DNA of 64,000 nucleotides from assembly GCF_016865365.1 (NCBI RefSeq), contig NZ_AP024469.1, forward strand, positions 3,750,501 to 3,814,500, read 5' to 3'. The notes below the pieces were generated by a model that was given only the letters and a program-made list of their open reading frames with translations, was not told the DNA's origin and made no database searches. Each line of letters opens with the position of its first letter. The stretch's first letter is position 1. Both the position numbers and the translations under genes were made by a program. The stretch comes from Geobacter sp. SVR. Its GTDB lineage: Bacteria; Desulfobacterota; Desulfuromonadia; Geobacterales; Pseudopelobacteraceae. Positions 5,249 to 43,463 of this stretch are shown here, one piece after another.

Positions 5249-5297
5249 ACGCCAACCCGTAATGTGTGCGACATGAAAAAAAGATGTCGTTGTTACG

Positions 5298-5475
5298 TGG
5301 TCTGGTGCCGTGCTTCGATGAGCACGGGTAAAAGGGAAGAGGGTGCAAATCCCTCGCTGACCCGCAACTGTAAGGGGGGACCGACTCCGCACGATGTCAC
5401 TGTCCGATAGAGGATGGGAAGGCGCGGAGAAGGGACGATCCCCGAGCCAGGAAACCTGCCAGTCCGATGGTTTTT
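5298..5475 (+). promoter_or_regulatory. Cobalamin riboswitch upstream of cobU
   Basis: The leader shows the conserved cobalamin aptamer blocks in order: GGTGCCGTG near the 5' side, GGGAAGAGGGTGCAAATCCC, CTGACCCGCAACTGTA, and the B12 box GAGCCAGGAAACCTGCC at about 5443-5460. It precedes cobU and the downstream nucleotide-loop genes. A terminator-like hairpin follows at 5536-5570, so control is probably by transcription attenuation when cobalamin binds. Confidence 0.95.
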
Positions 5476-5535
5476 GGGACCTCCGTGGAACGAGGGGCCG
5501 AGGCCGGATAGTATCACGTTCAGATCCTGCGTTCG

Positions 5536-20490: not shown

Positions 20491-20528
20491 GCCACCTGGC
20501 CCGTCTTAACAGGCTGTCGAAATTTCCA

Positions 20529-20615
20529 GGTTGTTCAAAAATGGGTAGATCGTCGCCCTCACAGGAACAAGGAGGCTGACGAGGACGGCGGCGATCTACC
20601 CATTTTTGAACAACC
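20529..20615. repeat. Large inverted repeat between convergent genes
   Basis: Arms 20529-20552 and 20592-20615 are perfect 24-base complements (GGTTGTTCAAAAATGGGTAG...), extendable to about 28 bases with one mismatch. The loop is about 40 bases. It lies between the convergent DUF72 and HAD-ATPase genes. The size and perfection suggest a small mobile (MITE-like) element; it may also stop transcription from both sides, although no T-run follows. Confidence 0.85.
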
Positions 20616-20625
20616 TTCTATTGCT

Positions 20626-41710: not shown

Positions 41711-41740
41711 AAGCTCTCTCCCCCTCGGTCGGAGTCTGAT

Positions 41741-41890
41741 AAGTCTTCCAGCCAGGTCTCCTGGCTCGGGGATCATCCCCATGCCGCGCCTTCCCACCCT
41801 GACGGGCAGTGGCTTTCTGCGACACGAGTCCCCCCTCACAGTTGCGGGGCAGCGCCGGATTTCAACCGGCTTCCCTACAGCTGGAAGTTG
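41741..41890 (-). promoter_or_regulatory. Cobalamin riboswitch upstream of cbiM
   Basis: Read on the minus strand the leader has CTGGAAG, GGGAAGCCGGTTGAAATCCGGC, CTGCCCCGCAACTGTGAG, GGGTGGGAAGGCGC and the B12 box CCGAGCCAGGAGACCTGG, with the closing stem CTTCCAG. All conserved blocks are in order. About 30 bases separate it from the cbiM ATG, with GGGGGAGAGAG between and no T-run, so regulation is probably at translation initiation. Confidence 0.95.
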
Positions 41891-42026
41891 AATGGTGTGG
41901 TTTCGTAGCACAGTCCGGTACGGCACGCAAGGCCAAAACTCTCAAGCCTGGCCGGGCTCCGCCTGAATATTCTCGCATCATGAGACGCTACAACCCGGCC
42001 ATCCCACCCTTTCCGACGCTACGGCA

Positions 42027-43463
42027 TTACCGGTTCAGGTCACGGGCGAACCACTGTCGACAGGCGTCCACAAAAGCGGGCGCGATCCGGGCGTTGCTGC
42101 CGAAGTGCAGATGAACGTAGGAGGCCAGGCAGTTGTTGATACGGTAACCCTCCGGCCCCAGCTCGTGCCCTTGGCGGCTCATGCGGTAGCAACGCCCCAC
42201 CTGTTGCGGCATGGGACCGATTTCGGAGTAGTGAAATTCATGCCCGCGCACCGCTGTCCCGGCAGCGGCAATGACTGCATCGGCAGTAAATTCCACCTGC
42301 CGGTAGCCCAGCGCCTTGCGTTTCGGCAACATGCGTGCCCTGGTGGGGTAGATGCCGACGAAATCGGCTGAATCTCCCCCTGCCCCGGCTGCCATCCCTT
42401 CGGTCAGATAGATGAAGCCTCCGCATTCGGCGTACACAGGCATGCCGGCCGCCCCGGCCCGGCTGATGGCCTCCAGCATGCTCCCATTGCCGGCCAGCCG
42501 TTCGGCATACAGTTCGGGATAGCCCCCCGGCAGATAGAGGCCGGCCGTCCCCTCGGGGAGACCGGCATCGTCCAGGGGGGAGAAAAAAGCCAGTTCCGCC
42601 CCGGCCTGGCGCAAAAGCCGCAGGTTATCCTCGTACATGAAGCAGAAGGCCGGGTCGCGGGCGACGGCGATACGGACGGGGGAAATCCCCCCTAGCCCCC
42701 CTTTCTCAAAGGGGGGTACATGGCTGGATGCCAATGCAGACTTTTCTCCCCCCTTTACAAAAGGGGGGTCGGGGGGGATTTCCAGTGCTGCTAGCCGTTC
42801 CAGATCCAGGTTTTCCTCAGCCAGATCCGCCAGAGCCGCCAGCCAATCCTGCGGCAACGGGTTATCCTCCGCCGTCACCAGGCCCAGGTGCCGCGACGGG
42901 ATCTCCAGCGCCTCCCTGCGGGGCAGGCAGCCGAAGATCGCGATATCGGGCAGGGCTTCGGTCAGACTGTGGCGCAGCAGCTCGGTGTGGGAGGCGCTGC
43001 CGACGTTGTTGAAGATCACCCCCGCCAGTCGGATACGCGGGTCGAAATCCCGGAAACCCTTCACCAGTGCCGCGGCGCTGGCGGCCATGCCGCGCGCGTT
43101 GACCACCAATACCACCGGAGCGCCGGTTATGGCCGCCACCTGGGCGCTGCTTCCCTCGAACGACGCCCCCAGCCCGTCGAACAACCCCATCACCCCTTCG
43201 ATAATGGCAAGATCGGCCTCGGCCGTATGATGCCCGAAGGTGTCACGGACAAAGGACTCCGGGCACATCCAGGCATCCAGGTTGATGGATGGGCGGCCGG
43301 TGACCAGGCGATGGTACCCGGGATCGATGAAGTCCGGCCCGCACTTGAAAGGTGCCACCGCTACCCCGCGGCGCGCCAAGGCCGCCATGACGGCCAGCGT
43401 GACGGTGGTCTTGCCGCTGCCGCTCTGGGGGGCAGCTATCAGAAATCCTCTCATGGCGCTCAC
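42027..43463 (-). CDS. cobB: Cobyrinate a,c-diamide synthase (CobB/CbiA)
   Basis: A 478-residue enzyme that amidates the a and c side chains of cobyrinate with glutamine and ATP. Walker A-like [13 protein letters not shown] is near residue 10; [38 protein letters not shown], the glutaminase Cys in [13 protein letters not shown] and the C-terminal His in [11 protein letters not shown] are all present. An in-frame insertion of about 35 residues (PPFVKGG ... [10 protein letters not shown]) at 227-261 comes from a palindromic DNA element, in the linker before the glutaminase domain. GTG at 43463 overlaps the tonB stop (GTGA) with GAGG 8 bases upstream. It lies downstream of the tonB gene and upstream of the cbiM riboswitch. 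Confidence 0.95.
42681..42783. repeat. Palindromic repeat inserted in frame inside cobB
   Basis: Arms 42681-42716 and 42748-42783 are 36-base inverted repeats with 30 identical positions. Each arm is itself built of C-runs and G-runs around TTT...AAA, encoding PPF-KGG-type peptides on either strand. The element has 103 bases, with about 31 bases between the arms. Confidence 0.92.

Follow-up and report, generated by a model that had tools for sequence, protein, structure and literature searches.

We confirmed that the palindrome within cobB of Geobacter sp. SVR is a real element, which is read through in the linker joining both CobB domains. The most probable explanation, to which we assign a probability of about 0.75, is that a REP-like non-autonomous palindromic repeat landed in this unstructured linker and now forms most of it, that the same slot has been occupied repeatedly within the family, and that the element was inverted once. 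The gene lies in a stretch of 64,000 nucleotides that was analysed as a whole (hereafter the window), and its features are listed in Table 1.

Table 1. Features of cobB and of its palindromic element, with positions in the window.
Feature	Position	Strand	Basis
cobB, cobyrinic acid a,c-diamide synthase, 478 aa, GTG start as listed	42027..43463	-	ORF + Pfam + NCBIfam
CbiA synthetase domain, residues 8-193	42885..43442	-	Pfam
GATase_3 glutaminase domain, residues 264-457	42093..42674	-	Pfam
Inverted-repeat element, interdomain linker, codons 227-261	42681..42783	.	repeat scan
A unit, 28/28; 3' unit in cobB sense, ends 11 nt before IAVA codons	42683..42716	+	
A unit, 28/28; 5' unit in cobB sense, starts at offset 115 nt (0-based) from SRHLG codons	42748..42781	-	
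31-nt spacer between A units	42717..42747	.	

The original prediction described a 103-base inverted repeat with 36-base arms inside cobB, and this description was borne out. The arms (42681-42716 and 42748-42783, 36 nt each, with 31 nt between them) are complementary at 83% of their positions, which gave this repeat a score of 30/36 in a scan of the whole window with 36-nt arms and loops of up to 60 nt, against a best score per copy of 23-25/36 in 20 first-order Markov copies of the window. Another strong inverted repeat (31/36), different in sequence (GTTGTTCAAAAATGGGTAGATCG...), is present at 20521-20623, between two convergent genes. When the sense strand of the cobB element is folded as RNA, its energy is -69.7 kcal/mol, with a z of -5.9 versus 200 shuffles. 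The name CobB is based on NCBIfam NF002204 (528.8 bits for a cut-off of 254) and on TIGR00379. As had also been proposed, the element is read through between the synthetase and glutaminase domains, which lie on either side of it, and an AlphaFold2 model of CobB, built with 28 aligned sequences, has a mean pLDDT of 89.7 with values below 50 at residues 237-256 and 192-194. A sequence search of solved structures with CobB found no CobB relative, its two matches being RecA chains, and the matches listed by a fold search include GatD/MurT, CTP synthase and other glutamine amidotransferases, with nothing on the linker.

It had further been claimed that the repeat adds about 35 residues. It does span 35 codons, but the net gain is only about 11-17 residues, since the stretch from SRHLG to IAVA has 75 residues in this CobB and 58-64 in 23 of the 27 linkers without any of the three palindromes described below (69-82 in the other four). 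The repeat thus makes up the linker, most of which it replaces, and does not lengthen it by 35 residues. The window also has two cobalamin riboswitches, at 5286-5477 (+) and 41734-41899 (-); the latter extends over the beginning of the cbiM frame as listed, which in reality probably starts further in.

Each arm corresponds to a unit of about 34 nt, here named A (AAATCCCCCCnnnCCCCCCTTTnnnAAAGGGGGG), with the pattern AAATCCCCCC nnn CCCCCC TTT nnn AAA GGGGGG, which contains a CCCCCCTTT/AAAGGGGGG hairpin. A search for the arm elsewhere in the genome, as the original prediction had advised, found the units dispersed. In the window's own genome (G000; 4.717 Mb, one contig) the longer A pattern has 13 matches and its reversed control none, the short hairpin pattern with up to 3 mismatches has 25 matches per strand versus 5 for the control, and about a dozen places hold A units or partial units. 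In a set of 57 genomes (own, genus, family and order), A units with up to 2 mismatches are present in 32, the reversed control giving zero in all 57, and the near-perfect units per genome range from 0 to 38, the richest being G018. Among 75 loci fetched from relatives, 72 have an A unit near the expected place and three have no unit above the threshold. The 72 loci comprise 36 inverted pairs, 34 single units and 2 direct pairs; in 28 of the inverted pairs the hairpins face outward and in 8 they face as in cobB, so that the cobB pair has the rarer arrangement. Exact A units were also found in 64 stretches of virus-labelled contigs in IMG/VR, and a plasmid search with the element peptide gave two weak matches only. 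The A element, palindromic, dispersed and read in frame in the interdomain linker of CobB, is particular neither to G000 nor to cobB.

The expectation that peptides of the PPF-KGG type are encoded on both strands was upheld. In 111 A units, PP[FL].[KR]G occurs in two of the three frames of each strand (79 and 101 times on the plus strand, 67 and 108 on the minus strand), because a one-base shift inside C6 or G6 leaves the residues unchanged. A further proposal, that this property lets such repeats enter genes without stops, survives only in part: a unit has 4.5 of six frames open compared with 4.1 in letter shuffles, so that the openness is due mostly to composition, and what is special is the reading of the C6 and G6 runs as the same peptide in two frames. 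A stop-free design of the unit was thus rejected and reduced to this two-frame property. PPF-KGG stretches in proteins may be repeat-derived, which is a warning for annotators.

CobB is one of several protein sites with A units. At ten of the 72 other loci the unit is in frame in a protein with a Pfam domain, namely CbiD (three genomes), LexA, MurG, UvrB, NuoL (two genomes), a HIT protein and DUF559 beside Cas4. It is located between the DNA-binding and S24 domains of LexA, between the two domains of MurG and just before the C-terminal helicase domain of UvrB; in CbiD and in the HIT protein it lies inside a single Pfam domain. To these, G000 adds an A unit between the domains of an ABC-ABC fusion and a partial unit (23/28) in CbiD. 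Pfam was run on 18 of the 21 through-reading frames (L133, L244 and L258 were left out) and on two G000 proteins; ten of the 18 frames have domains above the cut-off, seven have none and one, L290, has sub-threshold domains only. The other 62 of the 72 copies checked lie outside any Pfam-recognised frame, a count in which the three frames left out of the Pfam run are included. In the CbiD loop, A scores of 21-28/28 are found in 7 of 22 readable genomes (from 30 loci), where shuffles reached 18, and six of these seven units begin at the same codon position, as judged by eye. The same loop of the G000 CbiD (C1:1402644-1402884) has a hybrid-looking unit, with a CCCTCTCC hairpin and an A-type flank. 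In the MurG linker, A scores of 23-27 were obtained without shuffles in 6 of the best 30 loci of 55 genomes.

The CobB query matched 66 of 76 family genomes, some of them weakly or in the insert only, and 52 of the 57 in the mixed set. Linkers were read at 65 of 72 CobB loci, of which 56 belong to family genomes and the other 9 to 9 of the 21 order-level genomes; G064, G023 and G028, with weak or insert-only matches, were left out. The seven loci without a readable linker are those of G001, G013, G078, G072, G089, G022 and G011, and the cobB match of G013 contains a B match that was left out of the B count. Each linker was compared with 200 letter shuffles, and calls were made at scores of at least 21/28 for A, 17 for B and 19 for C; the shuffles reached at most 19 for A, except for one 21, and had maxima of 16 for B and 19 for C.

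With these thresholds, A units are present in 26 of the 65 linkers, including the CobB studied here, and all 26 belong to the family. Two unrelated palindromes occur in the same linker: B (GGCTTCGACTCCGCTCAGCC with its partner GGTTGGTGAGCGGAGTCGAACC) in 11 of 65 and C (CCCTCTCCC..GGGAGAGGG..GGGGTGAGG) in 7 of 65. The C calls are weaker than those of A or B, because the shuffles just reach the C threshold, and three of the seven stand at this score of 19. Six linkers are chimeric, four with A and C and two with B and C. Both palindromes are found outside cobB too, B in 12 and C in 10 of the 57 genomes (up to 2 mismatches; reversed controls zero). The 27 linkers without A, B or C include some with weak A scores of 17-20, which may be remnants. 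Similar residues without the inverted repeat, a case raised in the original prediction as evidence against an inserted element, do occur (G032, G024, G019, G007 and G014); since inverted pairs with the same 5' edge are found in other relatives, we read these residues as decay of a shared element and not as a native peptide.

The positions of the palindromes were compared at both ends of the linker. Among 27 rows whose unit scores 20 or more, 19 have the start of the 5' A unit at offset 115 from the SRHLG codons, six have it at 119, in another frame, and one weak case has it at 116. The 3' unit stops 11 nt short of IAVA in 8 rows and 2 nt short in 4. For B, 7 of the 11 rows begin at 114 and the other four at 124-143, and six of the seven C rows stop 11 nt short of IAVA. 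From these shared edges it follows that unrelated palindromes occupy one slot in CobB, whose two ends change independently. The length of the linker varies mostly between these ends, up to the 114 residues from SRHLG to IAVA in G080 (C41), where the stretch between two A units has expanded to a long simple repeat of Ser/Ala and Gly/Ala. In G029 (C1:3094200-3096200, a one-contig genome) a frame break inside an A unit splits cobB, possibly by a slippage event or as a sequencing error.

In G018 the element is present as an inverted copy. Its 101 nt match the G000 element at 89 of 101 positions when reverse-complemented and at 67 in the forward direction, and the CTAG of one A unit moves along with the inverted element. 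The reverse-complemented spacer agrees with that of G000 at 26 of 31 positions, where 10,000 shuffles gave at most 17. The G000 spacer has the same orientation in G032 and G029, is weak in G024 and cannot be recognised in G019; mismatch-free copies of its pattern in the 57 genomes lie in the cobB of G000, G032, G029 and, inverted, G018, and at a single site of G022 with no A units around. The idea that the spacer is part of the dispersed element was rejected, since with up to 2 mismatches there are 16 places in the 57 genomes versus 5 in the control, most of them matches by chance, and exact matches come down to these four cobB genes and G022. Strong constraint on the spacer is not claimed either: its identity of 26/31 exceeds that of the 4-fold sites of cobB but is not clearly above the nucleotide identity of 0.72 for the whole gene. 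In a tree of CobB cores, G000 branches beside the group of G018, G006 and genus g6 (support 91/82), and with this position inversion of the element in place on the G018 branch would be the simplest course, although a similar element may instead have arrived in G018 in the opposite orientation.

At the 4-fold sites of cobB, G000 and G018 are identical in 58 of 121 cases (0.48), and both keep a unit at 28/28. Intact units at such divergence indicate that the units are younger than the divergence of the gene, or else that they have been renewed or kept at the DNA level. In 25 of the 26 A linkers (the frame-broken G029 was left out), CCC accounts for 110 of 155 Pro codons and GGG for 87 of 141 Gly codons, compared with 27% and 28% in the cores of the same genes and with 36/155 and 33/110 in 40 other linkers, an excess that is partly built in because the rows were chosen for having a unit. 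In the tree of CobB cores, where the row of G035 is short at its C-terminal end and G060 was removed from C by hand (its C score is 19 and the match overlaps its A unit), label A (22 rows, A+C counted apart) requires 12 changes, at least 7 of them on well supported branches, with a mean of 18.5 for shuffled labels, and label B requires 9, at least 6 well supported, which is no fewer than with shuffled labels. These change counts argue for repeated events, in which gains and losses are indistinguishable. Graded decay of A, with scores from 28 to 22, is seen in genus g6, and together with the frame break in G029 it shows the cost side of the element.

RAYT genes are the usual partners of REPs, and enzymes of this kind were considered as movers of the A units. 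Of the 17 Y1_Tnp matches in G000, 14 share one score and one length; one of these 14 IS200-type Y1 transposase genes lies in the window at 1818-2174. Five equal-score Y1 genes are found on one strand at C1:208616-236763 with a spacing of 6945-6949 bases, which suggests a tandem array of a segment of about 7 kb. No A hairpin was found in the flanks, of about 0.6-1.1 kb, of the two RAYT-like genes of G000 and of a broken Y1 gene, and among the matches listed for relatives there is one case, G008, of a Y1 gene near an A unit (about 0.9 kb, by eye). G018, with its 38 A units, has no Y1_Tnp match in a genome that is 74% complete. A RAYT or IS200 enzyme was rejected as the demonstrated mover, given the G000 flanks and the lack of a Y1_Tnp match in G018, and could still be the one at work. 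As to the features of MITEs, the cobB element has inverted ends, and the single murG pair compared (G046/G053) shows a net difference of 27 nt with local divergence and no clean target-site duplication. No end sequence common to A, B and C was seen.

We propose that REP-like repeats, copied by some enzyme, would settle where extra Pro and Gly residues are harmless, linkers being such places. In CobB, two A units in inverted orientation around the 31-nt spacer would have landed between the synthetase and glutaminase domains. The insert may be tolerated there because what the linker requires is to be flexible, not to have a particular sequence, and also because the C6 and G6 runs yield a Pro/Gly-rich PPxPPFxKGG peptide in two of three frames per strand. 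Within the family the slot would have been reoccupied, by A in two or more registers and by the unrelated B and C, its ends changing independently. The inversion in G018 would most simply have come from recombination between the arms of the element itself, and the dispersed copies may renew or exchange units in the linker. The data show dispersed units, their in-frame position, a shared slot, chimeras, an inverted copy and units in other genes; from these patterns we infer that the slot receives moving or copied units, that units are renewed, that the element was inverted in place and that CobB works with it.

Several points speak against this proposal: no mobilising enzyme was found beside the units in the G000 flanks or, apart from the near case of G008, among the matches listed for relatives; the murG pair has no clean target-site duplication; four of the 11 B rows start elsewhere (124-143); and A edges that stay identical despite saturated divergence could equally reflect one old insertion, since decayed in many lineages. 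An in-frame insertion in the ancestor of most of the family, inherited vertically with uneven decay and with no later A insertions, would explain a 5' edge that falls on one and the same nucleotide in 19 rows spanning several genera, the graded decay in genera such as g6 (28 to 22) and the recognisable G000 spacer, in the same orientation, in G032 and G029. However, it would need many independent losses, and it does not account for the second register (119, in the other frame) in 6 rows, the second 3' edge in 4, the presence of B and C in the same slot or the units at 28/28 where 4-fold identity is about 0.48-0.5; we therefore regard it as somewhat unlikely. The coinciding edges of unrelated families could also be due to a mobilising enzyme with a preferred target, inserting palindromes at this exact site, as the edges of A, of 7/11 B and of 6/7 C rows agree within a few nucleotides and six of the seven CbiD units start at one codon position (by eye). 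Such an enzyme is a doubtful explanation, since there is no candidate next to the units in the G000 flanks or in the matches listed for relatives, no end sequence common to A, B and C was seen, and the edges coincide with the end of conserved protein positions, where selection could fix them.

Selection might instead keep the hairpin as an mRNA structure that slows ribosomes between domains. The hairpin is indeed very stable and lies at a domain boundary, the codons preserve the DNA runs, and the units of MurG, LexA, DUF559/Cas4 and the ABC-ABC fusion are also between domains. Nevertheless, many relatives have no hairpin or a broken half, the CbiD and HIT units are within one Pfam domain and 62 of the 72 copies checked are not in a Pfam-recognised frame, which makes this role improbable. 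As for low-complexity sequence arising by chance in a G+C-rich gene, the C6 and G6 tracts are simple and the short hairpin pattern with 3 mismatches has a background (5 per strand in the control), but Markov copies of the window do not exceed 25/36, the reversed control of the longer A pattern is zero in G000 and in the 57 genomes, and the dispersed copies refute chance, whose probability is negligible. Returning to the landing of a REP-like repeat in the linker, a broader version of it is possible, if tentative: linkers of conserved enzymes in this order would serve as docking slots, where unrelated palindromes take each other's place one end at a time and can turn around on the spot; mobile DNA would in this way keep remaking the linkers, and copying from dispersed copies would keep the units intact at the DNA level.

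Palindromes recur at the same linkers of core enzymes of B12 synthesis and the cell wall, and are present also in the SOS repressor and in an excision-repair protein. Sequenced relatives are numerous enough in this family for gain, exchange, inversion and decay to be traced, and it offers a testable system for protein linkers acquired from selfish DNA. A literature search at the level of titles and the first lines of abstracts, with supplements outside its scope, found no exchange of unrelated palindromes in one protein slot and no inversion, the nearest case being the recB genes mentioned below; it gave no paper for the element peptide and, among the titles listed for A-unit DNA words, none that was relevant.

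Repeats within genes are already known in Rickettsia, as REPs and in Geobacter. The RPE of Rickettsia (Ogata et al. 2000, 2002) are described as dispersed palindromes of 105-146 bp found in frame in unrelated conserved proteins, where the peptide is tolerated (PMC10969869, PMC2229807), and Gmk, one tested enzyme with an RPE, remained active (PMC2229807). The A element, too, is dispersed and in frame inside unrelated conserved proteins. By the descriptions given there, it differs from RPE in consisting of units of about 34 nt with G+C runs in Geobacter relatives, in a peptide that is the same in two frames per strand, in a slot common to unrelated palindromes and in having one inverted copy. 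Intragenic REPs of the GTAG and CGTC families are closer in size, being palindromes of 20-40 bp, single or in dimers, that are read in frame, with uvrB of Rickettsia conorii among the cases, and in recB of two Xanthomonas species different REPs lie at about the same site (PMC3733652). A is likewise a dispersed palindromic unit in the range of 20-40 bp and is found in genes including uvrB. Unlike REPs, the listed A copies have no GTAG or CGTC tag, as the three bases that separate the C runs differ between copies (TAG, CGA, TGT, CGG and others, by eye), and no RAYT was found beside the A units apart from the near case in G008. In REPINs, two inverted palindromic units form one larger hairpin and are tied to a flanking RAYT (PMC3116915); the cobB pair also consists of two inverted units in one larger hairpin, but no A-flanked RAYT was found in G000 and the cobB units face the rarer way (8/36).

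Coding palindromes have been described as far away as the mitochondria of horsehair worms (PMC6649704). Closer to the present case, multicopy sequences are known from Geobacter genomes (PMC2996986, PMC2700814), and those of P. carbinolicus are treated in the supplements of its genome paper (PMC3543383). In G. metallireducens there is a family of CCYTC repeats that resembles sequences of many other genomes, and other elements lie within genes (PMC2700814); judging from the legend, the CCYTC family may be our C unit. Linker slots, chimeras and inversion are not mentioned for these multicopy sequences in the portions of the two Geobacter papers cited here (PMC2996986, PMC2700814). Compared with all these systems, the exchange of unrelated palindromes in one slot, together with their flipping, looks like the new part.
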